Assembly (NCBI GenBank): GCA_945862165.1
Contig: CAMAXI010000002.1
Span: forward strand, 62,001 to 126,000
Length of the DNA stretch: 64,000 nt
Origin: Chryseobacterium gleum
Lineage (GTDB): Bacteria > Bacteroidota > Bacteroidia > Flavobacteriales_D > Crocinitomicaceae
Reading direction: 5' to 3'
In this document: one piece after another, positions 1,124 through 53,160 of the stretch
Position numbering within the stretch: position 1 is the stretch's first letter
Layout of the letters: each line of letters begins with the position of its first letter
Program-made: the position numbers and the translations under genes
The notes under the pieces: model-generated
Seen by the model: only the letters and a program-made list of their open reading frames with translations
What the model was told of the DNA's origin: nothing
Databases searched by the model: none

Positions 1124-1691
1124 TTGTCTTTTATTGCTTCTATTTTTCGTGCAAGCTAAAGCACAAAACATAGATTATACCTTATTAAAACAAATAAATA
1201 GTTCATACACAGAAAGGGGAGGTAAAGTACAATCTGTTATTACAAACAGCGTAACTCCAATTATGATAGCTGTTCCAGCTGGAATTTTAGCCTATTCGTT
1301 ATTTAAAAAAGATTCCATTACACGTCAAAAATTTTATACGATTGCCTCTTCGGAATTATTTACTGGAATAATTACAACATCGCTGAAATTTGCTTTTAAT
1401 CGAGAACGCCCATTCAAAACCTATCCAAACGATATTTTCAAACATGCAACAGCTGGATCATTGTCTTTTCCTTCCGGACATACAAGCGCAGCGTTTTCAG
1501 TTGCTACATCGCTAAGTTTAGAATTTCCAAAATGGTATGTAATCGCACCTTCTATGCTTTGGGCTGGCTCCGTTGGATATACTAGAATGTATTTAGGCGT
1601 CCACTATCCTTCGGATGTTCTTGTTGGAGCGATAATAGGCGCAGGAACAAGTTATTTGTGCTATAAAGCAAATAAATGGTTACATCATTAA
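1104..1691 (+). CDS. Secreted PAP2-superfamily phosphatase
   Basis: Membrane-associated or periplasmic phosphatase of the PAP2 (type 2 phosphatidic acid phosphatase) superfamily. All three signature motifs are visible: KFAFNRERPF, the PSGH block (FPSGHTSAAF), and TRMYLGVHYPSD with the catalytic histidine. The start at 1104 was chosen over an upstream ATG at 1056 because it begins a clean signal peptide (MQKIIYSCLLLLLFFVQAKA) with predicted cleavage before Gln. It overlaps the MscS gene end by 20 bp. The natural substrate is unknown: undecaprenyl pyrophosphate or phosphatidylglycerol phosphate are family possibilities, not shown here. Confidence 0.88.
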   Translation: MQKIIYSCLLLLLFFVQAKAQNIDYTLLKQINSSYTERGGKVQSVITNSVTPIMIAVPAGILAYSLFKKDSITRQKFYTIASSELFTGIITTSLKFAFNRERPFKTYPNDIFKHATAGSLSFPSGHTSAAFSVATSLSLEFPKWYVIAPSMLWAGSVGYTRMYLGVHYPSDVLVGAIIGAGTSYLCYKANKWLHH

Positions 1692-1693
1692 AC

Positions 1694-1724
1694 AATTAGA
1701 GCCACAATGATTGCAGCTCTAATT
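1694..1724 (+). terminator. Hairpin after the PAP2 gene
   Basis: A perfect 9-bp stem (AATTAGAGC at 1694-1702 and GCTCTAATT at 1716-1724) with a 13-nt loop lies just after the PAP2 stop and before the convergent solute-binding gene. The following T-run is weak (ATTTCT), so termination is probable rather than certain. Confidence 0.5.
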
Positions 1725-1778
1725 ATTTCTAATGTATCCTTACATTTTAACCTTTAAAATCTCGCTAAAACGATTAAA

Positions 1779-29984: not shown

Positions 29985-32084
29985 ATGAAAAAGACTCTCT
30001 TATTCCTTTTGTTTTCCTTGATTATAAACGTTTATTATGGACAATTATTACCATGTGGTCAACATACGTATTTAAATGAACAATTAAAAGATCCAACATT
30101 TAAAGCACAATATGAATTAGAACAAAAGATTCAGAAACAAGTGCTTTTGGAAATGTTAAAAAATCCAGCACAAAAACGAGGGACTATTTATAAGATTCCA
30201 GTTGTTTTTCATGTACTACATTCAGATGGTAGTGAGAATATATCTAGAGCCCAAATACTAGATCAAATTACGATATTAAACAAAGATTTCCGTTTGCAAA
30301 ATTCAGATGCTGCGAATGTTCATCCAGAATTTAAAAATATGCCATCAGATGTTGAAATCGAATTTGTATTAGCTACGAAAGCTCCTAATGGCACTTGTTT
30401 TTCTGGAATTACTCGCACATATACAGCAACAGCGACAACAGATGGTCATGAGCAAGTAGATTTAATTAAGGCTGGTAACGATGTGTTCAAAGGAGAATGG
30501 ACAGGATACAAATATTTAAACATATTTGTTAGTGCGGGATTAAATGGTCCTGCAGGTTATGCATATAAACCATATGGATATGGAAATTCTATGGAAAGTG
30601 GTATTTATATATTAGATAGGTATATAGGTAGTATTGGAACAGGTAGTGCTTTTACTAGCCGTGCCTTGACACATGAGGTTGGGCATTGGTTAAATCTAGA
30701 TCATACGTGGGGACCAAACAATAACCCTGGAGAAGCTTCTAGTTGTGACACGGATGATGATGTTTTAGATACTCCTAATTGTATTGGAGACAAAAGCATA
30801 TGTAATTTAGATGATAAATATTGTGGTCCACGTGCAAATGTGGAAAATTTTATGGAATACTCGTATTGTAGTAAGATGTTTACCCAAGGGCAAGTAGATC
30901 GTATGCGTGCTGCTTTACTCTCTACGATTGGTGGTAGAGATAAGATGATTTCACCCTCTAATTTAACCGCAGTTGGCGCTAATTCCATGTCGATTTGTAA
31001 AGTCGATTTCACTAGTAATAATTCCCAAATATGTGAAGGAGGTCAAGTTTTTTTTACGGATGCTTCATATAACTCCCCTGTATCTTGGAATTGGTCATTT
31101 CCAGGAGGTACCCCTAGTAGTTCAAAGATTCAAAATCCAACTGTAACCTATAATACTAAAGGAGATTATAATGTCACATTAACGGTTTCTGATGGAACAA
31201 ATTCTAAATCTATTACTAAAACTAATTTTGTTAAAGTGATCAGTGATCGTAGAATATTGCCATTTATAGAAACATTTTCATCCTATTCTACCCTTTCAAA
31301 TGCAAGTTTTTGGAGTAGTTCAAACGTTGGGAATAACCAAAGTTTTCAAATTTATACCGGTGCAGGTTATTCGGATAATTCTTGTTTAAAATTAGCGAAT
31401 TTCTTAGAGAATACTGTAAGTACCGATGAACTTACTTCCAATGCTATCGATTTATCTAAAATAACCAATCAAGGTTTAATTACACTTACTTTTCGTTATG
31501 CATATCGTAAAAAAAACAGTACTAACTCCGAAGTATTACGTGTAGCCATGTCGGGAGATTGTGGTTCAAACTGGAATATTCGAAAAACATTATCAGGCGC
31601 AAATTTATCCAGTTTAGTAAGTACTTCCGATTGGACTCCATCTTCGATTTCTGATTGGACAACCGTTCATGTCACCAACATAAATAGTACCTATTGGAAC
31701 GCAAATACAAGAATTCGTTTTTCATTTGATGGAAGCGGTGGTAATAACTTCTTTTTGGATGATATTAACGTATATCCTTCAGGTCCTTCAACAACATTAT
31801 TTTTAGGCATCGACGAATTGAAAAATTCAAGCGAAATTTCTGTATTTCCAAATCCTACTGATGAGGAATTATCACTAGAATTTCATTTAAATTCCCAACA
31901 AATTGTACAGTATGAAATCGTTGATATTTTAGGGAAACCCATTTTTAATAATTCTATTCAAGCTGCTGGCGGTAATAATTTAATTGTTATTCCGACTAAT
32001 AATTTAGGAGTTGGGAGCTATTTTATAAAATTAAATTTTGGTGGGGAAGCGGTGATGAAATATTTTCAGGTAGGAAGGGAGTAG
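29985..32084 (+). CDS. Secreted M43 zinc metalloprotease with PKD and T9SS sorting domains
   Basis: 699 residues. The signal peptide is MKKTLLFLLFSLIINVYYG, cut before Gln. The pappalysin-type (M43) catalytic domain has the zinc motif HEVGHWLNLDH near residues 230-240 and a Met-turn area in VENFMEYSYCSKMF; several cysteines follow. A PKD domain lies at about residues 345-420 (CKVDFTSNNSQICEGG, WSFPGGTPSSS). A jelly-roll-like section then leads to a type A T9SS sorting domain (VFPNPTDEELSLEF) at the C-terminus. It is exported through the type IX system and anchored or released outside. It stands alone, convergent with gpsA. Confidence 0.92.
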   Translation: MKKTLLFLLFSLIINVYYGQLLPCGQHTYLNEQLKDPTFKAQYELEQKIQKQVLLEMLKNPAQKRGTIYKIPVVFHVLHSDGSENISRAQILDQITILNKDFRLQNSDAANVHPEFKNMPSDVEIEFVLATKAPNGTCFSGITRTYTATATTDGHEQVDLIKAGNDVFKGEWTGYKYLNIFVSAGLNGPAGYAYKPYGYGNSMESGIYILDRYIGSIGTGSAFTSRALTHEVGHWLNLDHTWGPNNNPGEASSCDTDDDVLDTPNCIGDKSICNLDDKYCGPRANVENFMEYSYCSKMFTQGQVDRMRAALLSTIGGRDKMISPSNLTAVGANSMSICKVDFTSNNSQICEGGQVFFTDASYNSPVSWNWSFPGGTPSSSKIQNPTVTYNTKGDYNVTLTVSDGTNSKSITKTNFVKVISDRRILPFIETFSSYSTLSNASFWSSSNVGNNQSFQIYTGAGYSDNSCLKLANFLENTVSTDELTSNAIDLSKITNQGLITLTFRYAYRKKNSTNSEVLRVAMSGDCGSNWNIRKTLSGANLSSLVSTSDWTPSSISDWTTVHVTNINSTYWNANTRIRFSFDGSGGNNFFLDDINVYPSGPSTTLFLGIDELKNSSEISVFPNPTDEELSLEFHLNSQQIVQYEIVDILGKPIFNNSIQAAGGNNLIVIPTNNLGVGSYFIKLNFGGEAVMKYFQVGRE

Positions 32085-32130: not shown

Positions 32131-32190
32131 TGAATGAGGAGATTGGAGTGACGAGATTGGAGTGATGAGTGACGAATGAAGCGTGATGAG
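32131..32190. repeat. TGACGAG/GAGATTG-type repeats after the metalloprotease
   Basis: Low-complexity text of the same vocabulary as at 23.95, 56.2 and 59.17 kb (GGAGTGACGAGATTGGAGTG, GAGTGACGAATGAAGCGTGA). No coding sense is seen. Confidence 0.5.
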
Positions 32191-32211
32191 ATTGAAGGAA
32201 TTATAAGTAGG

Positions 32212-32280
32212 AGACGCAAAGCATTGCTAAAAAGAGAAGCAAAGCATTGCTACCAGGAGACGCAAAGCATTGCGTCTTTA
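32212..32280. repeat. Triple 23-bp tandem repeat with a hairpin at the gpsA stop
   Basis: Three contiguous 23-bp units at 32212-32234, 32235-32257 and 32258-32280 share the core GCAAAGCATTGC (starting at 32216, 32239 and 32262). The last unit contains the perfect palindromic hairpin AGACGCAA-AGCA-TTGCGTCT at 32258-32277, and its last three bases are the gpsA stop codon. It may act as a terminator for gpsA and for the convergent metalloprotease gene. Confidence 0.75.
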
Positions 32281-37187: not shown

Positions 37188-38240
37188 TTAGTTGAAGCCC
37201 TTAAAATCATCCGGACATTTAAACATTTCTTGTCTTTTACGTTTAGCTTGAAAACCTTTCAATAAATATTTATCATCCATCATGAAAACTAAAGAAATTT
37301 CATGCGAACCGAAAGAAGACGTTCTTAATTGGGTCAAGGTAAAATCAACGCTATAAGTAAATCGTAATTTATGGACAGATTTTACCGGTAATAAATACCC
37401 GATTGAGGTAATATACGATTCAAACCGTTGATTATTCATTGTATTACCACTTCTAGACCAAATCCCAATATTTAAGGATGATTTATGTTGGAGATTAAAT
37501 CCGATAGTTCTTGTCGAAAATTTATTTTGCGTTTCATAAATACCAGCAAAGGAATACACTAGAATTCCAAATAGAATTTGTGTTTTTGCATGAATAACAG
37601 TTTTAATAGGTATGTATTTATTTTCAGCAAAGAAAGCATCTTTGGGACGGTTCAAATGCTGCATTGCACCACCAACATTTACTAATATTTTTTTAAACTG
37701 TTTGGTTGTTTTACTATCGTAATAGAACTGGTAGGCTGCACCCGTGCCTAAATCCATGTATGTAATTGTGTTAAATGAAGGAGCAATAAAATTAGTTGGA
37801 TAAATCTTACCGAGCACCTCATCGTATTGATCTGAAAAACTTAACTTACTCCAATCTACGTAACGATTCATAATTCCTCCAGACATCCCAAATTGAAACT
37901 TATGATTACTTGTTTCGATTGGACAGTAGGAATAAGACATTGTACCGCCTGTTGTACGAAGCATACCTTCTCCTGCTACATCACTTAATACATTAATCCC
38001 AACTCCTAGTTTATTTAATATTTCCCCTTCAAATGTAGCAGAAGTAGTGTTAAATTTTCCAGGAATAGGCGCCCATTGATTACGCGTATTAAGTCTAAAC
38101 GTAAACCCTCTATTTATAGCTGTCATTGCAGGATTATAGTAAGCAGGGTTATTGTAAAATAAGGTAAAATTTGGATCTTGCGCGTTAACAACTGCGACAA
38201 CAAACAAATTATAAATAGTAATTATTAATATCCTTCTCAT
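37188..38240 (-). CDS. PorP/SprF-family type IX secretion outer-membrane protein
   Basis: 350 residues. The signal peptide is MRRILIITIYNLFVVAVVNA, cut before Gln. The body is a PorP/SprF-type beta-barrel: PNFTLFYNNPAYYNPAMTA at the start, TRNQWAPIPGKFNTTS, then GVGINVLSDVAGEGMLRTT. Such proteins are partners for particular T9SS client proteins, for example SprF for the adhesin SprB. The 4972-residue client with a type B sorting domain ends 1 bp upstream, so this is very likely its dedicated partner, an inference from position and families. Confidence 0.92.
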   Translation of the reverse strand: MRRILIITIYNLFVVAVVNAQDPNFTLFYNNPAYYNPAMTAINRGFTFRLNTRNQWAPIPGKFNTTSATFEGEILNKLGVGINVLSDVAGEGMLRTTGGTMSYSYCPIETSNHKFQFGMSGGIMNRYVDWSKLSFSDQYDEVLGKIYPTNFIAPSFNTITYMDLGTGAAYQFYYDSKTTKQFKKILVNVGGAMQHLNRPKDAFFAENKYIPIKTVIHAKTQILFGILVYSFAGIYETQNKFSTRTIGFNLQHKSSLNIGIWSRSGNTMNNQRFESYITSIGYLLPVKSVHKLRFTYSVDFTLTQLRTSSFGSHEISLVFMMDDKYLLKGFQAKRKRQEMFKCPDDFKGFN

Positions 38241-38241
38241 T

Positions 38242-41200
38242 TTATTTAATTACAGTAACAGTCCCTGCTCGTTTATAAATAGTTGGTTGATATTCTTTCC
38301 CTTCCCAAACAGAGTTATCTCTAAAAATCGCATTTACTTTCCAAACATACGAATCTTGTTGTACATATTCACCTTTATAGGTACCGTCCCATGCTTCCGT
38401 TGGTCGTCCATATTCATCGATAGCAGTGGAACGCCAAATTAAATTACCCCAATCATCATAAATCGTTATTTCATATTCAAATAGACCGACTCCTTTTGGC
38501 AAAAAGTGTGATACTTGAAAATCTTGATGTCCTAAATAAATAGCATTTGCGACATAAAGTCCTTTAAAGAAATCAACATGGATTGTTTTCGTGATTGTAT
38601 CCACACAGTTATAACTATTAGTCGCAATTAAAGTCGTACTAAAATCTCCGCTATGGTGGAATTTATGGGTAGGAGAATTTACATTGGAGGTATCCCCATC
38701 ACCAAAAAACCATGTATAATAATCTGCTTGTTTAGATGCATTTTTAAATACCATCGTTCCATTCAATAGATCGTCAATTTTGATTCCTTCAGCATTAAAA
38801 TCTGCTACAGGATCTGGATGCACAATAATTTGTTGCGTCAACACAACTGTATCGGCACATCCACCTTCACCCTCTCCTATTACTGTAATCGTATAATTTC
38901 CTTGTTTCTTGTAGGTATAATTGATGGTTCCACCTTCTTTTTTGGCACCATTACCCATGTCCCACGTAATCTTATTGACAAATAATGAATTAATGGAATA
39001 GAACAATTGATCCCATTCACAAAAACCGGAAGGTAATTCCTTTGGTGTAAGTTTCGGCGTATTATAATTTCTAATAAATTGTTTCGCTGTACTTAAACAA
39101 CCATATTCATTTTTAGCATTTAAAACAATTAGATGGTTGTTTACCTTCGTATAATTGACAATTGGGTGTGTTTCAAAAGAAGTTATTGCATCCCCAAAAT
39201 CCCAATCATAATTTGTTGCGCCAGTTGACTGATTATACGTTTTTACTTCCATTGGTTGGAAGCATGGATCCGAGTTAGTGATCGAGAATTTAGCGACTGG
39301 TAAAGGATGTACTAAAATTGTTTTAGCAATTGTATCCTTACAACCGATGCTATTTTCTGTAACTAAATTAATTTGGTATTTACCATCTTTTAAAAATACA
39401 TGATTCGGGTTTTCAGCGGTAGAATAATTGGTATCTCCAAAATTCCAATTTAAGAATTTATACCCGATACTCTTATTGGTGAAATCTACCTTTAGTGGCA
39501 TACATCCTTCCACTTTATCGGAATAAAAATCGGATTTAGGACGATTATTCACTGTAACAAATTTAGAGACCGAAGTTGTACAAGCGTATTCATTGATTGC
39601 ATCCAATTTCACCTTATAGACATTTGAAGCATCATATTTCACGGAAGGGTTATCTAAGTTAGAGGTTTGATTATTCCCAAAATTCCATGCGTACCCAACC
39701 GCACCTGTTGACTGATTATTAAATTGTGTAATCATCGGGATGTAGCAAGGGTCTGTTGTAGTGAAATTAAATGCAGGTACAGGAATTGGGAAAGTCGTTA
39801 ATTTATGTCTAACGGTATCCTTACAACCTAAGGTGTTTTCTACAATCAATTCGATGTTTAATTCACCCACTTTCGTAAATAGATTATTTGTAGAAGTATT
39901 TGCGGAATTATTTCCATCGTCAAAATTCCATTTGCTATAATTTGCATATAAAGATTCGTTTAAAAAGCTCACTGACAAAGGAATACAACCCTTGTCTTTA
40001 TCCATACTAAATTGTGCTTTAGGTTTTTGATTCATTTGCACCGTTTTTCGGATGGTATCTTTACACTCAAATTTATTTGTCGCGATTAAATCCACATTAT
40101 ATACCCCAGCTTTCAAATAGTTAGCAGCAGGATTTGTTTCTGTGGATAATTGCCCGTTCCCAAAAAGCCAATCATATTTCTTAGCATATAAAGAATTATT
40201 CTGGAAATATGCATTCATCGGATTATAACAAGGATCTGTTGTCATATACGTAAAATTCGGAACAGGCAAAGGCATTGTTGTTATGGCATGTTCAATCGTA
40301 TCCTTACATCCATTGCTACCCTCTACGATTAATTTCACTTGGAATTTTTTAATCGAATCTTGTCCGGAAGTTTTAAAGATGTGTTTGGTGTCTTGTTGAT
40401 TAGATACGTTTCCATCGTCAAATTCCCAACTATAGTATTTTCCAAATGTGGATGTATTTTTAAAATCAATTACCAACGGAATACAACCTATGTTTATATT
40501 GGTGGTAAATTCAGCCGCCGGTTTTTGTAATAATGTAACCGTTTTTTGGATGGATATACTACAGTTATATTCATTGGTAGCAGTTAATTTAACGTTATAA
40601 TCCTTTGGAATCGTATAGGTGGTCTTAGGATTTGTAATAGTTGCAACTAAACCATTATCAAAATCCCAATCATAATATAAAGCACCTGTAGAAGTATTTG
40701 TAAAATTAGTCACCATCGGTGTTGCGCAAGTATCGGATCGTTGAAAAACAAAATTAGGTGTTGGTACAGGGAAGGCTTCGATTGGAAGTATTAAGGTATC
40801 CTTACATTTATCACTATTTTCTACAATAAGCCTAACATTATATTTACCAGCAATCGGATAGATTGTAGTTGCATCCGTCGTATTTTTTGCATTCCCGTCA
40901 CCGAAATCCCAACTATACTTACTTGCTCCTTGACTCTTATTTGTTAACGAGATTGACAAAGGAACGCAGCCATCTTTTTTATCTGAAGTAAAATCTGCTT
41001 TTGGTTTTGGGTATTTTATTACTTCGTGAGAAATACTCGACATACATCTAAATTCATTTTCACCCTCCAATTTAACAATGTACTTGCCTGGTAATTGATA
41101 AACCATTGTTGGATTTAATTCTACCGAAGTCATATTATCATGGAAATACCATTTATACGATTGCGCTCCAATAGATGTATTTGTAAAATCCGCATACATT

Positions 41201-44200
41201 GGCGTATAACATTGATCCGAAGGTGTGTAGGTGAAGTTCATTGTTGGCAAAGGGAAAACATGCACTTTAGATGTAAAAGTATCTTTACAGGAAGATGCAT
41301 TTTCAACAATTAATTTCACTTCAAATAATGTATCTTTTAATACCGTTTTAAATAAATGATCCGATTCAATGATATTTGTAATTGTTCCATCGCCATAATT
41401 CCAGGAATGGAAATTCGCTCCAATACTCTTATTTTTAAATTTCACTAATATAGGCGAACAACCTTGGGTAGTATCCATACTGAAAGCCGCAACAGGTCTT
41501 GGTTTAACATACACTGGATGTTCTACGGAAGCACTACAATAATTATCCACATTGGAAACTTGTAGATTAATGGTGTACTTTCCAGCATTTAGGTATGTGT
41601 GTGTCGGATTTTCAACAAAAGAAGTATCCCCATCTCCAAATATCCATCTATAGGTAAATTGGTCTGTTAGATTTCTAATTGTTTTGAATGCAAATGCCCC
41701 CTTCAAACATAGACTATCCTTCGAACTCACAAAATCAATTTTAGGCGTTTGGTACACATTTATTGTCGCGCGCATGGTATCCTTACTACAACCATTACTC
41801 ACTGCCAAATAAACGTTATAATTACCTGGTTTTGAATATACATGGGTCGGGTGTATGTCTTTAGAGGAAGTACCATCTCCAAAGTTCCAAATATGAAACG
41901 TATTACCCATGGAGTATTGTGTAAATTTGATGCTCAAATCCGTACAACCCTCTATTCTATCTGGATTAAAATGTGCTTTTACCGTATTAGGATGCACCAA
42001 AATAGTTGTTTTAGCAGTATCCGAACCACATTCATTTACAGCAATAACTTTAATATTATAGGTTGTAGAATTTAAAAGACCTGTAGTATAATTTTTATAA
42101 ATCAACGAGTCTTTTGACTCTACAAAATTTCCATCTCCAAAAAAGTCCCACTTAATTTCATCTGGTAATCCAACTGTTTTATTTGCATATACAATAGGCA
42201 ATACCGAACAACCTTCATTTACGTTTGGTGCAAAAATAATTTTAGGTACAGGCTTCACTACTACTGGAATTTTCATGGAATCAGCGCCACATAAATTCTC
42301 AATACGTAATTGAATTTGATAGGTTGTATCTTGAATTATACCAGGATTATATATTAAATCTGCCGGATCTTTTACAGTCGTTTGTTTACCATTCCCAAAG
42401 TCCCACAGGTAATTCACTCCAATTCCTTTCGATAAGTTTGTGAAAGATACAAGTCCGCAAGTACTATCTGGGGTACGCGTAAATCTTGCGGATGGACCTT
42501 CACGAACCTCAATGTTTTTCGTTAAAGAATCGATACAACCAAAAGGGGATGTTGCGATTAAACGAATATCAAAAAAGCCTACGCTATCAAATTTATGCGT
42601 TGGATTTTTATCTGTATAACTCGTTTTTGGAGAAATCGACCACTTGGAGCTTCCTAAATAATTTGTTTGATTCAATATAGTATGGGTTGTGTTTAAACAT
42701 ACGATGGAATCAATCGAAAATTTCACTTCTGGTAAAGGATGTACTTCTGCAATCAGTGTATCCCGTTTAACACAACCAGTAATCGGATGCGTATAACTAA
42801 ACACGATTGGATGTTTTCCTACACCAGCTATACTTGCTTTAAAACTTCCTTTGATTGGATCCGTAATTCCATTTCCTTTCCATTCCCCTTTGTCCATGGG
42901 TGAAGTTGGAGTGTAAAATTGATTTACAAAATCAAAAACTGGATCCGAGAAACAAAATTCTTTATCGGCACCTGCATTAATTATAAAATCTGGATGAACC
43001 TTAAACAGCATCGTATCCCGATTTAAACAAGTACCTTTTCCAATAGTAAATACCAATGGTACTAAAGTATCTTTAATTGGTTTGAATACACCTGTGGTTG
43101 AGACGTTAAATCCAGTCCATGTTCCAGGTTGAGGAATACCATTTAACTGCACATCCAGGTCATTAAAACAAGCAATCAAATCTGGACCAGCATCTGCTTT
43201 TGTTACATCTTTAACCGTAACTATTGTAGTATCAAAATTTTCACAACCTGTAGGTAAAATAAAATTATACACCACTGAATATACACCATTTGTTTTTGGC
43301 GTATAAATACCTTCTTTGGTTAGGTCTGGGGAACCTGTCCAAATTCCTGGTTTAACAACCCCTTCCACAGTACCAATCAACTGTTGTGCTATCGGTTGAT
43401 TACACAATGTAGTGTCTGGACCTGCATATACTTTTGGTAGTGGATTAACAAAAACGGTGGATTCTGTGGTATCCTTACACGTATATCTATTTGTCCCAAT
43501 AACCGTATATTTTGTAGTTATCGTTGGAGTTGCAACCGGTTTTGGACAAACATTACAAGACAAACCAGTAGCAGGTGACCATGCATATTGCGCACTGAAA
43601 GCAGCACCTCTTCCTTCTAAGGTTGCTTTTTTGCCTAAACAAATAGTAGCATCTGTTACTTCAATGATTGGTTTCGGCAATATAGAAAGATAGAAAGTGT
43701 CTAAAATTCCAGCACAAGTTAAATTTTGGAAGGTGTATTTTGGAAGTACCGTAAAAAGCACTTTTTTAATACTACCTGAATCTGGATGTATTGCAATAAA
43801 TGGTGGAATATTACCTTCTCCATTAAGGACTTTTAATCCGACTCCTGCGACCGCTGTATTCCAATGAAACGATGTTCCAACACCTTTAAATTCAAACACA
43901 TTCGTCGAACTTCCATGACAAATTAATTGTTCTTCAATTGGTTTTGCTTTTGCTACTGGATTTACGGTTATTGTATACAACGAATCTTTACCATAACACG
44001 ATTCTGTTGCTGCTTTCGTATAAGCTTTAGCAGCGATGATAACATTTAATGGTTTTGTTGCGCTATTGGTTAGTACCAAAGGATCTATCACTTGAGAACC
44101 AGAAGTTTTTGTAAACCCTTGAATACTATCTGGGATATCATTTATTTTCCATTCAAAAAACACATTTGGCGTAGATGAACTTATCGTAACCACTTGGAAA

Positions 44201-47200
44201 TTAGTAGCATTACAAATTGTTTGATTCAATAATGAAAACGCTACCGAAGGGGCAGGATTTATCGTAAGATTAAAGGCGATAGATTGACCTGAACACCCAG
44301 CACCATCTGTCGTAACATCATACACTAACGTATAAGGTAAAATACCTGTATTATCAATAATCTTAGCCGGCATCGCAGCTGAACCACTTTTAAGATAACC
44401 TTTAATAGTAGTTGGAACCAAAAGGGAATCTCTTAATTTCCAATTAAATACTGTATTGCTTACATCCGAATAAAAAACAGGAGATACATATGCTTTGCTA
44501 CCACAAATACTTTGCGCTGGTATCAAATTGACTTTTGGTCGGGGCAACACTTGAAATGTATATACAAACGTATCCCCAGAACAACCTTTCGAATTAGGAA
44601 CCACATTAAAAGATACATTCGCTACCGACGAACTATCATTAAGCATAGTAAAAGGAAGTATATTTCCTTGTCCAGCTGATTTTGTGAGTGCAATTTTGTA
44701 TGGATTTGCTTTCAAACTCCAAGTATATGAGGTAATTCCATTTTGTATATTGGACTTCCAAATTACCTCTTTCGTATTCACTCCAGAACAAACTTCTTGA
44801 CTGCCAGGAGTATCTATTATTTTAGCACGTGGATTAATTACAATTTTATATTCTCCGACTTTACTCGGACATTGATTTGCAGTTGCAACTATGTTTACAA
44901 TCGAAACTTCTGTTTGGTTTGTATTATTTAATCCTTTGAATGACAGTATTTTATTTGTTCCAGAAAGCGGTAACCCACTATTAATTAATGGTGTACTATT
45001 ATTCCATTGGTAAGACGCTGTAGAAATGGTAGAATTAAATACAACTTCTTTTGTATTTTGATTATAACATAGTGTATCATTCAATGGGATAATGAGTTGT
45101 GGTGTAGGATGAATGGTATATGTAAATTTCAAAGTATCCCCAAAACAACTTTTACTTTCTTCCGTGAAAATAGGTACTACTTTTACGTTGGCAATTTTAC
45201 TTGTTGAGGTGGTATTGAGTGATTTAAAGGAGTGTATCTCTCCAGTACCAGACTGCGCCAGTCCAATAGCGCTTAAATCATTAAACCAATTATACGAAGT
45301 TGCGGAACCCGTAAAACTTACTTTTTTCGTAAGTGAATCATTACACAAAACCAAATTTCCTGGTTGTGTCATGGTTGGAATTGGATTAACCTTTATATAG
45401 AAATTAGCAGTATCCCCTTTACACTCTTTACTTAAATTACTAAAAAATGGTACTACTTTAATATTTCCAACAAGGGATGTTGTTGTACTTACATTTAGCC
45501 CTTTAAATGGAGTAATATTTCCAGTACCTGAACTTGCTAATCCAATAGCATTAGTTGTATTATACCATTTAAAATAAACACCATTGGATGAACTATTAAA
45601 TGGATTTAATTTTACGGAATCTTGGTGACAGACAATTTTATTTACCAAAGGATCCATGAGTGGTTTTGGATTTACTGTTATGTTAAATAATTTTGGCGTA
45701 CCAACACATTTGATTACATCCATAAATTCAGGTATAACAGAGATCGACGAAGAAACCGGAATTGTTCCGTTATTAATTCCTTTAAATGGCTCTATACTTT
45801 TACCATGGTTGGATGCTAAACCAATTGCAGGATTTGCAACTGTCCAAGTATAATCTGTCCCATTTCCATTAAAAACAATATTTGTTGTGTTTTCATCTTT
45901 ACAAATTACTTGATCAGCAATAGAAGCTAATTCTGGGATTGGATTAACATGTATATAGATTGTATCTTTTTTTCCATCACACACTGCTAAACCTGCTGTT
46001 TTTGAAAAAGCGAGTAGCTTTATGGTTTGCTTATCTAATTTGGTATGTTTTAGTGTAAATACTGGTATCGAACTAATTGTTCCTGAAAGGGTATTTACTC
46101 CACTTACATTCGAAGAACCACTTACAACATTCCAAATAAAGGAAACATTTGGAGTAGAAGATGCCAATGTAATTGCAGCCGTATTTTGACCAGAACAAAT
46201 TGTTTGAGGTGATATTGGATTTAAAGTTGGTGCAGGGTTTACCGTAATTTTCAATAGTTGTGAAGCTCCTCCACATCCTGTAGATCCATTCGTAGAAATT
46301 TCGTACAATAAATCGAAAGGATTTGACCCCGAGTTATTAATTATTGTGTCTTTTAAATCGCCTGTTCCACTACCTGTTGCGTTATCAACATAGCCCGAAA
46401 TCGTAGCTGGTACAACAGCTTTATTGGTCAATTTCCACTTAAAAACAGTTCCTGCAACATCCGAAATAAAAACAGATGCTGCAGTGGATGTACCGCCACA
46501 AATTGTTTGATCGGAGACTCCTTTTAAACCTGGAGAAGGATTAATAAATAAAGTATATAAAAAAGAGGTGTCACCAATACATCCAGCATAGGTAGGTGTA
46601 ATTCGATATACTAAACTTCGGATTGTTTTGGCGGTATTAAATATTTTGACTGATTTGAAATCGCTTGTACCTGTTAGTGCATGCCCCGAAACTGAATCTG
46701 GTGTATTGATTAATTTCCAGGTATAACTAGTTCCTGTTGCTGTAATATTTGTATTCCAAACAATCGACTTGGATAATTCACCAGAACAAATTGTATCTTC
46801 CAAATCCGTATTGGTAATTTTAGCAGTTGGTTTAACTGTGTAAATTACAGATTTTGGTGTACCATCACAAGCCACTAAATTATTGGTAAAGGTTGGAGTC
46901 ACGGAGATAGTTGCTGTAACACTTGCTGCAGTATTATTTACAGCAGTAAAGGTTGGAATCGATGTGATTCCTGTTGCACCTAAACCAATCGAAATATCCG
47001 AATTATCCCACTTATAGGTAGTATTAGGTATATTACTCGAAAATGTTTTAACTGGAAAAACTTCCTTGTTACAATAAGTAAGTGGTGTTAAATTTTCTAG
47101 TATCGGTCGAGGGTTAACTTCAATATCAAATTGATCCGCAAGTCCCAGACATTCTTTGGTATTTAAGGTGTATTTTGGCGTAACAGCTATGGTTGTTTTG

Positions 47201-50200
47201 ATAGGAGATGTCCCCCCATTTATTGCAGTAAATAACGGAATATTTCCTGTACCAGTAGCTGCAGATAAACCTAATAATGTATTCGAATTTATCCAATCAA
47301 AAGAGGTTGCTGTTCCAGTAAAACTAATCGCTAAAATCTGTTCATTGGCACATTTGGTAATATCTGAAGTTGGAGTAATTTGCGGGGTAGGGACTACATG
47401 TATCAAGTGTGTTTTAACACTACCCGGACAAACTGCAGAACCAGTGGTACTCGCCTTCGCTTCGATACTTACTGCAGCAGGAAGACTCGTTGAATTTGAA
47501 AGTATGTATGCAGGTATTTCTCCTGTTCCTGTAAGCGTTGTAAACCCAGTAATCGAAGTTGGAAGCGTTGCAGTCCAAGAGATCGTTGCGTCAGAAGGCT
47601 GCGGTGTGACGGTTACTTTTTGGGTGCTTACATTATTACAAATTGTTTGATCTGGCACCGAAAATGTTACTTGAGGTGTCGGATTTACTAATACCGAAAA
47701 CTCTTTTGTATCACCACTACAACTATAAGCACTAGGCGTAATGGTATATACTAAACTTTGTGGTAGATTATCCGAATTTGTGACAACCACTCCATTGATT
47801 GGACCAGTTCCAGTGGCTACGTACCCACTTAATTTTGTTGAAATCGCGGGGGAAGATTTAATTGCCCATGCATAGGTTGTAGTTGTCCCAATAGAGGAAG
47901 TAAATGTGGGAGTGGTAAAAGAAGCGCCACTACATATAACTTGCGAAGCAATAGACGATAATACCGGTCTTGGATTAATCGTTAAAGTATAATCCGTTGG
48001 ATCACTTTCACAAGCATCAACTTTGGCAGTAACGGTGAATTTGACAGCAATTGGACTTGTCCCTGTATTTAAAAACGAATAGCTTGCTGGTATATTACCA
48101 TTTCCAGTAGCAGGTGTAATTGTTAGTCCAGAAGACATCGGGGAACTAATCCAAGTATAAACAGGTGTAGGTGAAGTAACACTACTAGTCCAAACAACCT
48201 CTTTATTATTAACACCACTACACACCTCTTGTGCTAGAGGACTATTCGTAACTCTCGGTTTAGGCTTCACATTTATTTTAAATAGGACAGGCGTCCCCGG
48301 ACATACACTTGCAGTAGGTGTAACTTGTATTGTTGCTGTTTTTACTAAATCTGAAGTATTAACTGAAGTAAATGATGCAATATTCCCTGTACCAACTGTA
48401 CCGCTGATACCAATATTATCTCCTGTGCTTGTCCAACCAAAAGTAGTTCCACTAACATTACTTGTAAATGCTACGGTAGGTTGAACGAATTGTGGACAAA
48501 TGGAAATATCCGAAATAGGATCTAATTTTGGAATAGGATTGACTTTAATCGTAAATGTTTTATCATCGCCTACACATGTTTTTCCTGAATTGGTAAAACT
48601 TGGCTTCGCTGTGAAATTGGAAGTTACAGGGGAAGTAGTAGCGTTTGTAAGCTTCATGGAACTTATATTTCCAGTTCCTGGTGTAGTAATTCCTATTGCT
48701 AGATCATTTTGCCAATTTATAACGACATCCGTTGCGGGTGAAGTAACAAAATTTACAGGATCGTTATTCGTATTTGAACATTTTTCTTGATTGGATATCG
48801 GCGTAATGGAAGGCTTTGGTAATACTTTTATTGTAAAAGGAAGTACTGGCCCTGTACAAGCTTTGCCTTCAAAAGTAAAGGTTGGAGTTACGTTGTAAGT
48901 ACCTGTTTTGATTGTAGCACCTGAATTTTCAGCAACTACACTAGAAATAGCTCCTGTTCCACTTAACGCGGAAGTAGCATTTGGCTTGTCACCAGTTAAT
49001 GCCCAACTATACGTACTGCCAGCTGCAGGGTTCATCACCGGTGTAACCTCATCCGTATTATCCCCGGTACATTTTACCTGACTTGTAATCGGATTTACTT
49101 CAGGAGTTGGTAAAACTTTAATAACGGCATCACTAGGTACACCGTTACATGTTGACAACGTCGTCTTATAAATTGGTGTTACTGTTACTGTAGCAACTTT
49201 GACATCTTTTGTTGTATTCGTTGCGGTAAAAGAAGCGATTGAATTACCCAATCCACTTGCAGCTAAACCAATCGTAGCATTTGAATTTGTCCAAGTATAA
49301 ACTACATTGGATGGAGTTGTACTCGAAAAATTAATAGCCGTTGTATTTTGCGTATTACAGATTAACTGACTTGGTGTACTTGGTGTAACATTCGGTTTTG
49401 GATTTACTGTAATCGTATGGGTCCTTGTTTGTCCTGGACACGTGGATGCTCCAAGCGTTGCTGCTTTAACAACTACATCGACAGATAGAGGATTTACTGT
49501 GCTATTCGTGAACGGAAAAGAAGGGATCGAAAATGAAGTTGCACCGATTATAGAATCTGACAATTTTGAAGGAGCACTTAAACCAGTTGGGATGGTCGAG
49601 AACTTCCAAATATATTTTACGTTAGCTGTTAAAGAAGAAAATGGTATTGCTTCCGAATTTGTTTCTGAACAAATTTCTTGTGTGGTTTTACTAAGTGGTT
49701 GAATCGAAGGAGCTGGAAATATTGTAAATGAGAAAGTACTAGGATTACCTTCACATACATTGGCAATTGATTTAACAGTATAGGTAAATGAAACAGGATC
49801 TGTTCCACTATTATTGATGGTTAAATCGGTCATCTGCCCCGTACCAGTTTGATTTGTGGTAACAACAGTAATAGCACTAGGAACAGGATTAGGAGTTGTT
49901 AATGTCCATTGAAAAGTTGCACCAGCTACCGAAGATGTAAAAGTAGGAACGGTAATTTTTTCACCGCCACAATAAGTGGTTTTTGTAAGAGGGGAAATTG
50001 TTAGGTTTGGTTTAGGCTTAACAACGATCGTGTATTCAAATGCTGGACCATCACAACCATTGGATTTTGGAATTACGGTATATTTAAGAGTTTGGTCTAC
50101 AAATGTTGGGTTTGTTAAAGTCCTTACAGGAAGATTTCCTTCTCCTGATGCTGTAGCTCCTGTTATATTTCCAGTATTTGAACTAATAGACCAACTGTAT

Positions 50201-53160
50201 GTTGAAGCCATCGTACTTGTCCACGTAACTAGAGATGTTGCTGTTTCAGAACAAATTGTTTGGGAATTATTTGAGTTATTTACTGATGGTAATTCTTTAA
50301 CCGTTACAGTAACCGTGTTGGTATTACTGCAAGTACCATCTTCTCCTTTAACAGTATATGTAGTTGTTTCTAATGGGGAAACTTTAACTTTACTTCCCAA
50401 TGTTGGTATAATGTTTGTTGTAGGCGTCCAAGTAAATTTCCAATTTGTAGGTGTATTAGATGTTTCACCAAAAGCTTCTAAATCAGTTGATGAATTTTTA
50501 CAAATTTCAGTAGAAGAGGGAGTTATCGTTAAGGTTGGTTTGGTTTTTATAACCAGTGTTACCAATTCCTCTGGACCAGCACAGCCATTCATTGTACCTT
50601 TTACTTTATAAATACCATCTTGACTTACACTATTTATAGGTAAACTGAAATTTTGATTTGTATTCGTATACCCATTTGGACCAGTCCAACTATAGGTAGC
50701 TGGTGTTTGTGGCATTGTTCCAGAAGTAAAATTGGCATTATCTCCAATACAAACATTTACAGTTGGTGAAAGATTGTTTATTCTTGGATATAATACTGGA
50801 GGCAAAGGTTTTACATAAACAGTCTGATTTGCAACAGCGTCTCCACAAGCGGATTTAACTGTTAACTGAATGGTTTTTAAATCGGTTGAATTATAGGTAA
50901 TATTCCCGGGAATTAAACTTGTTGAAGTAGCTGGTGATCCAGTATTAAATATCCAAGCGTACCCAGAAATAGTATTATCACAAAGATTAACAGTTGCAGT
51001 AGGTGAAATGGATGAATTTAAACAAATGGAATCCAACAATGGAATGCTTACAATTGGTAAGCCCAGCACCTTAATTTGCTGATCATACCAAACGGTATCA
51101 CAGGTATTTGCTAATTTTAAACGTATGGTATAGTTCCCTCGTGTATTGAATTTAATTTTAGGTACTAGCGAACTCGCTGAGGTTCCATTTATAAACTCAT
51201 AATTTCCAGTACTTGCTGAACATGGGGTACTATTAAAGAAAATTTCCCATTTACGATAAGATCTACACGATTTTGAAATATCCGATAAATCTTTGATTAT
51301 AGGTGTGAATGGAGCGCAACCAGTTAATTTATCTAATTCAAATTTTGGAATAGGTTTATCTTCGACGCAAATAGTTTTTGTTTTGGAATCTTCTGGACAT
51401 AAACTATTTGATATAGCATTAATTTTCACATGATACAATCCTGCTTCTTGGAAATTCAATGATATTATTTGATCCCCGGACTCTGAATCTAAATATTTAA
51501 TTTCTTTTAATCCTAGATTTGAAGAAGTAGTCCATCCTGTATTTGGTGTTATTTCCCAAAAATGTTTATAATTCGTATTACAGGAATTAGAAAAAGCTGT
51601 TATTCCCCCAATCGTTTTATTATAAACTAAGGTATTTCGATTAATACAAATAGTATCTACAGGAATATCAAGGTCTGCTTTTAAAGGCTCAGATATATAA
51701 ATTGGCCAGCTTCCATCAAACACACCTGAGGTATCACAACTATTTAGTGATTTCATCACAGCCCAATGTGTATTTTTATAAATATCAAATTTAAATCCGC
51801 AAGATGATTGTTTAAATGCGTGCCATATTGTATCTGGTAATTTACCATATTCATATTCGTATTCATTTCCATCACTAAAAATGATTTTATAAAGCGTAGT
51901 TGGATCATCAGCATCATTACTCTTTAATTTAAACCAAAGATTTCTAGGAATACATCCATCTGGATCTTTTTGAGTTTCAATATCAGGAGGTCCAGGTTTC
52001 TTACCTACAAATACCTTATACTTATTTTCTATTATACAATTTGTAGTTGTCTTAATTCTATATGTCAAAATATAGAAACCTGCATTATAAATATGGATTG
52101 GTATTGACTGATTATCAACATTAGTTTTAAAAGTTTGTGAACCATCACCCCAATCAACTTCATAATCAGTTATTAAATCAAATAAAGCAGAAGAAATACC
52201 ATTTTTAATTTTAATATTTCCTGTTGGATCAACAGTACAATTTTTCAATAATATTTCTCCTTTTAAACCCTCTTGCAAATAATCACTCGTAATTATCGCA
52301 TCTATTAAATTTAAATTACTGACAGCAGAAACCTGACATTGTAAAACATTAGCTTTTATAGTATAGGAGCTACCTTGTTGTAAATTAAATAATGAAATAT
52401 TTTGATTATTTGAAGAAAAACCAACTGGACCTGTCCAGTTAAAAGAGACTGAATAACCTAAATTATTCACTATGTTTGCTGATAAATTCGAATTTCCTCC
52501 TTTACAAACTATTTGATCAGAACCTGCTGATACTGATAAATTTTTTAGATTAACAACTTTTACATTATCACTAAACACACAATTTCCTGCTGTAGCGGTT
52601 AATGTCAAAGTTGCTTCTGTTGGAACTTGTGTCTTAGTAATATTTATAGCGTTATCTGTTCCTGTAATTCCTGCTGGTAATGATGTCCAACTATATACAA
52701 TTGAAGTATTGCTATTTTGTATGGTTGGTGCAATATCTACATCGTTTGATCCAGGACATATAGATTTAGTAGTCCCTAAATCAAACGAAAATTGATTTAT
52801 AACCTTCACATCAAAAGTGACTTCTTTTGGACAGACATCACTTCCTTTAGTAACTTTCATTATACATTTATAGACACCTTCTTGCGAATTAGTAATTCCA
52901 GTTTTTTTAAACGAGCTCCCAATTTGATTCGCTATAGGAACGTTGTTATTAGGTTCATACCATTCATAGGTGACTATTCCGCCATCAATATCTCCAGTAT
53001 ATTCTGTTTGTAAATTAATCTCTTGTCCGACACAATATTTTAAAGAGGTATTGGATACTTTGAAAACGATTTTTGTACAATCTAATGCGTAACTGTTCAG
53101 GCTAACCAATAAAGGAAAGAAAAATAAAAGTACGTAACGAAAAATAGTATTTTTTATCAC
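38242..53160 (-). CDS. Giant secreted multidomain PKD protein with type B gliding C-terminal domain (SprB-like)
   Basis: 4972 residues in one uninterrupted frame. The signal peptide is MIKNTIFRYVLLFFFPLLVS with cleavage around residue 26. Residues to about 955 hold irregular Ig/PKD-like domains. About 955-3160 are 23 PKD-like repeats of about 96 residues in ordered subtypes. About 3160-3477 are further Ig-like domains (AGPDTTLCNQ, AGPDLIACFND). About 3477-4863 are 17 PKD domains with W-x-F-G/D-x-G cores. The end (about 4863-4972) is the gliding motility-associated type B sorting domain (ITIYDDWGNLIW, WDGTYKGE, GTVTVIK). Most domains keep two cysteines. Length, repeats, sorting domain and downstream PorP/SprF gene suggest an extended surface adhesin like SprB. 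A role in gliding is inferred. Confidence 0.95.
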   Translation of the reverse strand: MIKNTIFRYVLLFFFPLLVSLNSYALDCTKIVFKVSNTSLKYCVGQEINLQTEYTGDIDGGIVTYEWYEPNNNVPIANQIGSSFKKTGITNSQEGVYKCIMKVTKGSDVCPKEVTFDVKVINQFSFDLGTTKSICPGSNDVDIAPTIQNSNTSIVYSWTSLPAGITGTDNAINITKTQVPTEATLTLTATAGNCVFSDNVKVVNLKNLSVSAGSDQIVCKGGNSNLSANIVNNLGYSVSFNWTGPVGFSSNNQNISLFNLQQGSSYTIKANVLQCQVSAVSNLNLIDAIITSDYLQEGLKGEILLKNCTVDPTGNIKIKNGISSALFDLITDYEVDWGDGSQTFKTNVDNQSIPIHIYNAGFYILTYRIKTTTNCIIENKYKVFVGKKPGPPDIETQKDPDGCIPRNLWFKLKSNDADDPTTLYKIIFSDGNEYEYEYGKLPDTIWHAFKQSSCGFKFDIYKNTHWAVMKSLNSCDTSGVFDGSWPIYISEPLKADLDIPVDTICINRNTLVYNKTIGGITAFSNSCNTNYKHFWEITPNTGWTTSSNLGLKEIKYLDSESGDQIISLNFQEAGLYHVKINAISNSLCPEDSKTKTICVEDKPIPKFELDKLTGCAPFTPIIKDLSDISKSCRSYRKWEIFFNSTPCSASTGNYEFINGTSASSLVPKIKFNTRGNYTIRLKLANTCDTVWYDQQIKVLGLPIVSIPLLDSICLNSSISPTATVNLCDNTISGYAWIFNTGSPATSTSLIPGNITYNSTDLKTIQLTVKSACGDAVANQTVYVKPLPPVLYPRINNLSPTVNVCIGDNANFTSGTMPQTPATYSWTGPNGYTNTNQNFSLPINSVSQDGIYKVKGTMNGCAGPEELVTLVIKTKPTLTITPSSTEICKNSSTDLEAFGETSNTPTNWKFTWTPTTNIIPTLGSKVKVSPLETTTYTVKGEDGTCSNTNTVTVTVKELPSVNNSNNSQTICSETATSLVTWTSTMASTYSWSISSNTGNITGATASGEGNLPVRTLTNPTFVDQTLKYTVIPKSNGCDGPAFEYTIVVKPKPNLTISPLTKTTYCGGEKITVPTFTSSVAGATFQWTLTTPNPVPSAITVVTTNQTGTGQMTDLTINNSGTDPVSFTYTVKSIANVCEGNPSTFSFTIFPAPSIQPLSKTTQEICSETNSEAIPFSSLTANVKYIWKFSTIPTGLSAPSKLSDSIIGATSFSIPSFPFTNSTVNPLSVDVVVKAATLGASTCPGQTRTHTITVNPKPNVTPSTPSQLICNTQNTTAINFSSTTPSNVVYTWTNSNATIGLAASGLGNSIASFTATNTTKDVKVATVTVTPIYKTTLSTCNGVPSDAVIKVLPTPEVNPITSQVKCTGDNTDEVTPVMNPAAGSTYSWALTGDKPNATSALSGTGAISSVVAENSGATIKTGTYNVTPTFTFEGKACTGPVLPFTIKVLPKPSITPISNQEKCSNTNNDPVNFVTSPATDVVINWQNDLAIGITTPGTGNISSMKLTNATTSPVTSNFTAKPSFTNSGKTCVGDDKTFTIKVNPIPKLDPISDISICPQFVQPTVAFTSNVSGTTFGWTSTGDNIGISGTVGTGNIASFTSVNTSDLVKTATIQVTPTASVCPGTPVLFKINVKPKPRVTNSPLAQEVCSGVNNKEVVWTSSVTSPTPVYTWISSPMSSGLTITPATGNGNIPASYSFLNTGTSPIAVKFTVTAKVDACESDPTDYTLTINPRPVLSSIASQVICSGASFTTPTFTSSIGTTTTYAWAIKSSPAISTKLSGYVATGTGPINGVVVTNSDNLPQSLVYTITPSAYSCSGDTKEFSVLVNPTPQVTFSVPDQTICNNVSTQKVTVTPQPSDATISWTATLPTSITGFTTLTGTGEIPAYILSNSTSLPAAVSIEAKASTTGSAVCPGSVKTHLIHVVPTPQITPTSDITKCANEQILAISFTGTATSFDWINSNTLLGLSAATGTGNIPLFTAINGGTSPIKTTIAVTPKYTLNTKECLGLADQFDIEVNPRPILENLTPLTYCNKEVFPVKTFSSNIPNTTYKWDNSDISIGLGATGITSIPTFTAVNNTAASVTATISVTPTFTNNLVACDGTPKSVIYTVKPTAKITNTDLEDTICSGELSKSIVWNTNITATGTSYTWKLINTPDSVSGHALTGTSDFKSVKIFNTAKTIRSLVYRITPTYAGCIGDTSFLYTLFINPSPGLKGVSDQTICGGTSTAASVFISDVAGTVFKWKLTNKAVVPATISGYVDNATGSGTGDLKDTIINNSGSNPFDLLYEISTNGSTGCGGASQLLKITVNPAPTLNPISPQTICSGQNTAAITLASSTPNVSFIWNVVSGSSNVSGVNTLSGTISSIPVFTLKHTKLDKQTIKLLAFSKTAGLAVCDGKKDTIYIHVNPIPELASIADQVICKDENTTNIVFNGNGTDYTWTVANPAIGLASNHGKSIEPFKGINNGTIPVSSSISVIPEFMDVIKCVGTPKLFNITVNPKPLMDPLVNKIVCHQDSVKLNPFNSSSNGVYFKWYNTTNAIGLASSGTGNITPFKGLNVSTTTSLVGNIKVVPFFSNLSKECKGDTANFYIKVNPIPTMTQPGNLVLCNDSLTKKVSFTGSATSYNWFNDLSAIGLAQSGTGEIHSFKSLNTTSTSKIANVKVVPIFTEESKSCFGDTLKFTYTIHPTPQLIIPLNDTLCYNQNTKEVVFNSTISTASYQWNNSTPLINSGLPLSGTNKILSFKGLNNTNQTEVSIVNIVATANQCPSKVGEYKIVINPRAKIIDTPGSQEVCSGVNTKEVIWKSNIQNGITSYTWSLKANPYKIALTKSAGQGNILPFTMLNDSSSVANVSFNVVPNSKGCSGDTFVYTFQVLPRPKVNLIPAQSICGSKAYVSPVFYSDVSNTVFNWKLRDSLLVPTTIKGYLKSGSAAMPAKIIDNTGILPYTLVYDVTTDGAGCSGQSIAFNLTINPAPSVAFSLLNQTICNATNFQVVTISSSTPNVFFEWKINDIPDSIQGFTKTSGSQVIDPLVLTNSATKPLNVIIAAKAYTKAATESCYGKDSLYTITVNPVAKAKPIEEQLICHGSSTNVFEFKGVGTSFHWNTAVAGVGLKVLNGEGNIPPFIAIHPDSGSIKKVLFTVLPKYTFQNLTCAGILDTFYLSILPKPIIEVTDATICLGKKATLEGRGAAFSAQYAWSPATGLSCNVCPKPVATPTITTKYTVIGTNRYTCKDTTESTVFVNPLPKVYAGPDTTLCNQPIAQQLIGTVEGVVKPGIWTGSPDLTKEGIYTPKTNGVYSVVYNFILPTGCENFDTTIVTVKDVTKADAGPDLIACFNDLDVQLNGIPQPGTWTGFNVSTTGVFKPIKDTLVPLVFTIGKGTCLNRDTMLFKVHPDFIINAGADKEFCFSDPVFDFVNQFYTPTSPMDKGEWKGNGITDPIKGSFKASIAGVGKHPIVFSYTHPITGCVKRDTLIAEVHPLPEVKFSIDSIVCLNTTHTILNQTNYLGSSKWSISPKTSYTDKNPTHKFDSVGFFDIRLIATSPFGCIDSLTKNIEVREGPSARFTRTPDSTCGLVSFTNLSKGIGVNYLWDFGNGKQTTVKDPADLIYNPGIIQDTTYQIQLRIENLCGADSMKIPVVVKPVPKIIFAPNVNEGCSVLPIVYANKTVGLPDEIKWDFFGDGNFVESKDSLIYKNYTTGLLNSTTYNIKVIAVNECGSDTAKTTILVHPNTVKAHFNPDRIEGCTDLSIKFTQYSMGNTFHIWNFGDGTSSKDIHPTHVYSKPGNYNVYLAVSNGCSKDTMRATINVYQTPKIDFVSSKDSLCLKGAFAFKTIRNLTDQFTYRWIFGDGDTSFVENPTHTYLNAGKYTINLQVSNVDNYCSASVEHPVYVKPRPVAAFSMDTTQGCSPILVKFKNKSIGANFHSWNYGDGTITNIIESDHLFKTVLKDTLFEVKLIVENASSCKDTFTSKVHVFPLPTMNFTYTPSDQCYTPMYADFTNTSIGAQSYKWYFHDNMTSVELNPTMVYQLPGKYIVKLEGENEFRCMSSISHEVIKYPKPKADFTSDKKDGCVPLSISLTNKSQGASKYSWDFGDGNAKNTTDATTIYPIAGKYNVRLIVENSDKCKDTLILPIEAFPVPTPNFVFQRSDTCATPMVTNFTNTSTGALYYDWDFDNGLVATITNPKTTYTIPKDYNVKLTATNEYNCSISIQKTVTLLQKPAAEFTTNINIGCIPLVIDFKNTSTFGKYYSWEFDDGNVSNQQDTKHIFKTSGQDSIKKFQVKLIVEGSNGCKDTIEHAITTMPLPVPNFTYMTTDPCYNPMNAYFQNNSLYAKKYDWLFGNGQLSTETNPAANYLKAGVYNVDLIATNKFECKDTIRKTVQMNQKPKAQFSMDKDKGCIPLSVSFLNESLYANYSKWNFDDGNNSANTSTNNLFTKVGELNIELIVENTLGCKDTVRHKLTTFPIPVPAFNFTTTDPCYIPMITQFNNQSTGAVGYAWNFGNNQTSNLDNPSVKYDASNVYKVKLDAINEYACTTSVSKFVTVNNRPKSDFYSDKVEGCMPLKVDFTNKSIGYKFLNWNFGDTNYSTAENPNHVFLKDGKYQINLVTENSIGCKDTIAKTILVHPLPVAKFSITNSDPCFQPMEVKTYNQSTGATNYDWDFGDAITSFETHPIVNYTKVNNHLIVLNAKNEYGCLSTAKQFIRNYNTPKLTPKELPSGFCEWDQLFYSINSLFVNKITWDMGNGAKKEGGTINYTYKKQGNYTITVIGEGEGGCADTVVLTQQIIVHPDPVADFNAEGIKIDDLLNGTMVFKNASKQADYYTWFFGDGDTSNVNSPTHKFHHSGDFSTTLIATNSYNCVDTITKTIHVDFFKGLYVANAIYLGHQDFQVSHFLPKGVGLFEYEITIYDDWGNLIWRSTAIDEYGRPTEAWDGTYKGEYVQQDSYVWKVNAIFRDNSVWEGKEYQPTIYKRAGTVTVIK
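39070..41503 (-). repeat. Five A/B dimers of PKD domains in the giant protein
   Basis: Ten domains of about 81 residues (protein residues about 3886-4697). Type A starts with a GCxPLxVxFxNxS pattern and ends VENxxGCKDT (for example KDGCVPLSISLTNKS). Type B starts DPCYxPM and has NP and Y-x-VKLxAxNEYxC (for example TDPCYIPMITQFNNQST). They alternate A-B five times without exception. Confidence 0.8.
43680..50298 (-). repeat. 23 PKD-like repeats forming a four-fold super-repeat in the giant protein
   Basis: Protein residues about 955-3160. Each unit is about 96 residues, begins near a (K/R/T)P-containing linker and has an early Cys (TICSG or QEVCSG) and a late Cys before (V/I)NP. Subtypes recur as alpha-beta-gamma-delta-epsilon: block I near 50298-48263 (7 units), block II to 46830 (5), block III to 44832 (7), block IV to 43680 (4). 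Confidence 0.8.

Follow-up and report, generated by a model that had tools for sequence, protein, structure and literature searches.

The window, by which we mean the whole 64,000-nucleotide stretch analyzed (contig CAMAXI010000002.1, positions 62,001 to 126,000), encodes a 4972-residue protein whose array of 23 domains is a true super-repeat, with domain types in a fixed order in blocks. The array is probably a super-repeat of PKD_5-type beta-sandwiches that grew by block copying, in a slot of a surface protein adjoined by a PorP/SprF family gene. The features concerned are as follows.

38242 to 53160, minus strand: giant surface protein gene, 4972 aa (open reading frame list and translation; GTG start; N-terminus hydrophobic and signal-like).
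50293 to 51300, minus strand: conserved module N3, residues 621 to 956, left of the array (27 to 42% identity in orthologues without the array).
48265 to 50292, minus strand: block I, units u01 to u07, alpha-beta-gamma plus four delta/epsilon (unit cut, matrix, held-out classification).
46831 to 48264, minus strand: block II, units u08 to u12, alpha-beta-gamma plus two delta/epsilon, 478 aa, residues 1633 to 2110 (unit cut, matrix, held-out classification).
44833 to 46830, minus strand: block III, units u13 to u19, alpha-beta-gamma plus four delta/epsilon (unit cut, matrix, held-out classification, tree).
43678 to 44832, minus strand: block IV, units u20 to u23, alpha-beta-gamma plus one delta/epsilon (unit cut, matrix, held-out classification).
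42601 to 43677, minus strand: conserved module M1, residues 3162 to 3520, right of the array (35 to 43% identity in orthologues).
39181 to 42060, minus strand: PKD_4 region, residues 3701 to 4660 (Pfam PKD_4 and autocorrelation).
38245 to 39450, minus strand: C-terminal 402 aa (conserved at 41 to 49% across some 35 family genomes; weak similarity to a T9SS type B sorting domain).
37188 to 38240, minus strand: PorP/SprF family outer-membrane carrier (PF11751, E 4e-37), whose start codon follows immediately after the giant gene.

Pfam matches in the 4972-aa protein were PKD_4 (E 1e-122), PKD (E 6e-76), and PKD_5 (PF19406; E 8.9e-72), the last reaching 237 bits over 15 stretches, above the curated cut-off of 25. 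Cutting the array at its (N)PxP linkers gave 23 units, each 91 to 105 aa long. A generic profile made from these units, with the cuts not supplied, found exactly 23 units at residues about 956 to 3161 (window positions 43678 to 50292, minus strand) and recovered divergent units beyond the PKD_5 stretches, in agreement with the initial annotation, which had placed 23 PKD-like units of about 96 residues at 43680 to 50298. All 23 units contain exactly two cysteines at equivalent positions, and the pair is invariant across 36 aligned blocks; from this we infer one disulfide per domain. The PKD_4 region is a second super-repeat, in which two PKD_4 types (GC.PL... and DPCY.PM...) alternate with a period of 163 aa in about five dyads (autocorrelation 0.81 at 163 aa versus 0.28 at 83 aa).

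Because pairwise identity among the 23 units was 15 to 43%, subtype is not assignable from identity alone. Same-label pairs outscored the others by 46 points (standard deviation 5.1 under label shuffling; 0 of 20,000 shuffles as high), and profiles built with one block left out classified 21 of 23 units correctly, including 12/12 of alpha, beta, and gamma, with u04 (delta, called epsilon) and u19 (a tie) missed; both tests are partly circular, as labels were assigned by eye. The maximum likelihood (ML) tree and the autocorrelation are free of that circularity. Alpha, beta (support 83.6/81), and gamma (support 91.5/89) were each monophyletic in the ML tree of all 23 units, so that same-subtype units from different blocks grouped together and grouping of neighbors regardless of subtype was not seen; delta and epsilon jointly formed a weak clade. 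Segmentation-free residue autocorrelation peaked at 1143, 1820, 479, and 665 aa, corresponding to 12, 19, 5, and 7 units, each peak exceeding that of one unit (94 aa). Equal block positions are thus more alike than neighbors, with a period at block length, and the previously proposed non-random subtypes in alpha-beta-gamma-delta-epsilon order are upheld by label shuffles, held-out classification, and the ML tree, with a weak split between delta and epsilon.

Delta and epsilon are better read as one class. As two subtypes they were rejected: neither is a clade in the ML tree, and u04, labeled delta, goes with epsilon. The initial annotation had counted 3, 1, 3, and 0 epsilon units after delta in blocks I to IV; its run pattern holds once the split is dropped, giving delta/epsilon runs of 4, 2, 4, and 1 in blocks of 7, 5, 7, and 4 units, which are better written ABG+4, ABG+2, ABG+4, and ABG+1. 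Block IV has one delta/epsilon unit only because it abuts the conserved sequence at which the array stops. In the ML tree, the three epsilons of block III cluster with one another as local sisters (95.7/79), so part of the block's seven-unit length is probably of local origin and not a copy of block I.

The same array occurs in relatives, some of them metagenome assemblies under the names Crocinitomicaceae or Flavobacteriales. A congeneric genome (G008, locus L042) carries all 23 units in unchanged order, 84 to 96% identical to the window from u04 to the array end, about 60 to 80% identical left of u04, and 36 to 56% identical over residues 1 to 600. The G008 gene is frameshifted at the u03/u04 boundary, where identity steps from about 60% to 95%, by recombination or chimeric assembly. 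The N-terminal 600 residues (51361 to 53160), at 36 to 56% identity in the sister species against 84 to 96% for the C-terminus and the greater part of the array, look like a fast-evolving tip region. Among 18 proteins, several of which are mutually related so that the counts are not independent events, alpha was followed by beta in 42 of 42 confidently classified cases (10 more successors were unclassified) and beta by gamma in 47 of 47; ordered steps numbered 89, versus 12.8 by shuffling (shuffle maximum, 26). Adjacent pairs of the same class numbered 0 for alpha, beta, and gamma and 76 for delta/epsilon. The same cyclic order was found in other Crocinitomicaceae genera, including proteins with different flanks. 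Arrays of 31 units (xEABG xEABG xEABG xEABG...) occur in one set of related proteins, and G145 has dEEEABG twice. Comparison of block numbers among orthologues, as the initial annotation had proposed, gave the same 23 units in G008 and, between related proteins of 36 and 31 units, a difference of one block. Of 299 genomes from the order, 31 had a triad-profile match at E 1e-40, all in the family Crocinitomicaceae and not all of them full triads; outside the family, 395 genomes spread over the phylum gave no strong triad and two weak matches only.

Other arrangements also occur. Five loci (L107, L083 of G110, L121, L085, and L086) carry another type of super-repeat, in which one gamma precedes about eight delta/epsilon units with a period of 9. 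Giant proteins of the genus (L043, L044, and L046, in G011, G012, and G007) have a two-domain super-repeat, in which IGL..GTGNI units alternate with a second domain about 80 aa long. A 2220-aa paralogue in the window genome (L050, contig C9) has six PKD_5 units, with no clear subtype match for any; their match strengths run strong-mid-weak-strong-mid, a pattern that suggests a triad.

Copying of multidomain blocks is seen at the DNA level in relatives and inferred in the window, so the block-wise duplication proposed initially stands firmly for the former and less directly for the latter. Identity between units of the relatives reached 60% at lag 5, 58% at lag 7, and 56% at lag 9, versus about 35 to 47% at other lags; the prominent lag was 5 for six proteins, 7 for G145, and 9 for G110. 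Units 2 to 6 and 9 to 13 of the seven-unit block of G145 are 100% identical in DNA, with edges of 90 to 92%, and G110 has a five-unit tract 100% identical in DNA (edges of such tracts in the two genomes, 90 to 97%); blocks of G208 and G204 are 84 to 97% identical in DNA. These recent identical blocks come from metagenome assemblies, where repeats can be misassembled. The 36-unit and 31-unit proteins differ by one five-unit block. Such recent copies are the expected product of unequal recombination or conversion between repeats within a gene. The claim that size changes only at the epsilon position stands in amended form: single-unit changes are confined to the delta/epsilon class (76 adjacent pairs versus 0), not to epsilon as a separate subtype. 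The mechanism that we propose would start from an ancestor in which the types had already diverged and stood as alpha-beta-gamma with at least one delta/epsilon unit. Recombination among the repeats of a single gene would have duplicated this whole run repeatedly and in several lineages, and only delta/epsilon units would also have been copied one at a time. That single units were instead shuffled and the same order selected repeatedly would account for identical order in proteins with different flanks, but it is very improbable, as the block-length tracts of DNA identity and the constant length of the five-unit block (459 to 478 aa, tiled head to tail in relatives, with block II of the window at 478 aa equal to the five-unit block of other genera) point to whole-block copying.

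In the window itself the blocks are old, since they are about 30% identical to each other yet conserved one to one, mostly at about 90%, in the sister species G008. A tandem-repeat finder returned nothing over the window array, its blocks being too old for DNA-level block copying to be seen. The triad tree joins II with IV (91.6/91), and separate alpha, beta, and gamma trees disagree; approximately unbiased (AU) tests rejected none of the block topologies tried, including monophyly of all four blocks. The window blocks may mix histories. A 12-unit copy of blocks I and II into III and IV, suggested by the strong 12-unit lag and the pairing of II with IV, was considered and not retained, as subtype trees disagree and AU tests reject nothing.

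The order could be a mere record of array growth, the types having diverged before the first block copy, with no selection at present; we hold this plausible, at somewhat short of an even chance. It is favored by the fact that block copying alone yields a fixed order, by the about 30% identity between window blocks, which means that most subtype-specific sequence has drifted, and by multidomain duplication being the usual mode of repeat growth (PMC1553488). Against it, the 0 tandem pairs of alpha, beta, and gamma versus 76 of delta/epsilon suggest, without proving, a constraint on the triad, and so do the gamma-specific residues kept across genera (PAP linker, 84%; T, A, and T at 95, 95, and 100%), which are likewise suggestive and not proof. 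The earlier proposal of retained functional differences thus stays a suggestion: subtype-specific residues are kept across genera, but block copying could hand down this order with no functional difference between subtypes. The alpha-beta-gamma order would most likely be constrained by position-specific linkers and contacts between domains.

Another reading is that identical neighbors misfold together, which would favor blocks of mixed type over single-unit copies. Neighbors in multidomain proteins are mostly less than 40% identical, a rule quoted in PMC4647330, and in six period-5 relatives and G145 neighbors were at most 49% identical and nonneighbors reached 68 to 100%. We consider this reading unlikely, since arrays of the same domain family with like neighbors exist (G046, 69% mean and 89% maximum; G200 and G183, 51% mean), and in the window itself neighbors (32%) are not less alike than nonneighbors (30%).

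The flanks of the array are conserved while its slot is not. Ten proteins from other genera are orthologues of the giant protein by their C-terminal 402 aa (41 to 49%), M1 to M2 (35 to 43%), and N3 (27 to 42%), and the alpha-beta-gamma array is absent from all 10. In 8 of the 10, the slot between N3 and M1 holds 153 to 1290 aa of other repeats, with the N3 end and M1 start at or near the limits of the window array; the slot limits are ambiguous in L162 and L164 owing to repeats, and the slot of L163 includes three delta/epsilon-like units. Between genera, the slot (42601 to 51300) varies in content and in length (153 to 2205 aa) with both flanks conserved, and the super-repeat is thus a cassette occupying this variable position. 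It may have come ready-made from a giant paralogue of the 31-unit family and not been built in place, a possibility to which we give a little less than an even chance. Orthologues in other genera lack the array, including g30, in which a 31-unit paralogue also occurs; the slot limits equal the array limits; and the domains flanking the slot on either side are alike (25 of 75 residues identical), which could allow recombination. Set against this, multiple losses from an ancestral array would give the same picture, and the window triads are long branches of uncertain placement in trees.

The 4972-aa protein is a probable type IX surface protein. A PorP/SprF-like gene adjoins 9 of the 10 array-less orthologues (the tenth, L162, lies at a contig end), and SprA and GldK are present in the window genome; the type B sorting-domain matches are weak and under both curated cut-offs (CHU_C, E 0.014, 15.9 bits, cut-off 27; TIGR04131, E 0.013, 15.7 bits, cut-off 35). 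Each type B T9SS substrate stays bound to its own carrier (PMC12635249). SprF anchors SprB and is disulfide linked to GldK by a Cys-X-Cys tail, and in Flavobacterium johnsoniae SprF needs two tail cysteines; Porphyromonas gingivalis PorG works with a single tail Cys (PMC12635249), so a like mechanism is possible for the window carrier. In 13 of 13 carrier sequences compared, the only invariant cysteine lies in the extreme C-terminal tail (KCPDDFKGF); this single Cys departs from the SprB-type Cys-X-Cys tail and is a possible variant of the SprF anchor to GldK, in which case the protein may have a track-linked anchor. The array is most likely an extended adhesin stalk; no adhesive domain or ligand was identified for the 4972-aa protein. 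Near the giant gene lies a Peptidase_M43 protein with a PKD_4 domain and a Por_Secre_tail (29985 to 32084), a probable type A T9SS substrate, and short tandem repeats with units of 14 and 23 bp lie between two genes at 32135 to 32273.

The locus resembles SprB/SprF of F. johnsoniae (PMC12635249) in having a very large surface protein gene with adjoining PorP/SprF gene, SprA and GldK in the genome, and a conserved C-tail cysteine in both carriers; it differs in having one tail Cys instead of Cys-X-Cys and a weak sorting domain, and gliding is not known for the organism. A model of block II (36 aligned blocks; pLDDT 91.4, pTM 0.61) was confident per domain and nearly all beta, with tandem beta-sandwiches. 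Its best matches among solved folds were GhpA fragments (Z 11.2 to 13.4, root mean square deviation 8 to 10 Å over several domains), followed by titin I65-I70 (Z 9.8), the best non-GhpA match. GhpA was also the best PDB profile match (E 1.4e-57), with many weak composition-biased stretches of 9 to 36 bits. GhpA (Aureispira sp. CCB-QB1; PDB 9flp and others), like the window protein, is a giant Bacteroidota surface protein with tandem Ig-like domains; the similarity is remote, and GhpA forms heptamers (PMC13319060), in a filament tipped by hooks, which are not known for the window protein. The grappling hook GhpA was rejected as a family for the array, as subtype profiles were without a match: no single subtype profile finds GhpA, and so there is no demonstrable alpha-beta-gamma order in it.

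The closest kinds of arrangement are the super-repeats of titin and nebulin. In the A-band of titin (Ig/FnIII, C-zone, and D-zone super-repeats), domains at equal positions are most alike and linkers are position specific (PMC10665226), and, like the window array, titin has tandem beta-sandwich types in fixed order and grew by duplication of super-repeats (PMC10665226). The window array, unlike titin, is bacterial, probably extracellular, and built from one domain family whose cysteine pair is conserved, and its secretion is probably type IX; no counterpart is known for titin's thick-filament partner with its matching period. Nebulin, with seven-domain blocks (PMC1553488), shares multidomain block duplication and position-specific types, though it is a eukaryotic muscle protein of a different repeat. 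Domain repeats, which are much rarer in prokaryotes, usually grow by the duplication of several domains together (survey, PMC1553488). Acinetobacter BAP is likewise a giant bacterial protein with lettered Ig-like module types, arranged differently between strains, in different bacteria and with different modules; the available part of its description (PMC4647330) has no fixed type order across genera. No paper on a bacterial alpha-beta-gamma super-repeat was found in the open-licence literature.

Super-repeats of domain types in fixed order are known mainly from muscle giants. Here they follow a strict rule across bacterial genera: alpha, beta, and gamma occur once each, in order, with delta/epsilon variable, and blocks are gained, lost, and homogenized. 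The alpha-beta-gamma-x-epsilon block might be a structural register, each copy forming one period of a rigid stalk and having a defined twist or site for binding, block number setting length and spacing as in titin super-repeats, the triad invariant and the delta/epsilon run an adjustable spacer, possibly as a homo-oligomeric filament of the GhpA type; we regard this as speculative and give it low probability. This makes it possible to test whether domain order in giant stalks is selected or only inherited, with a small recombinant five-domain block and many natural array lengths.
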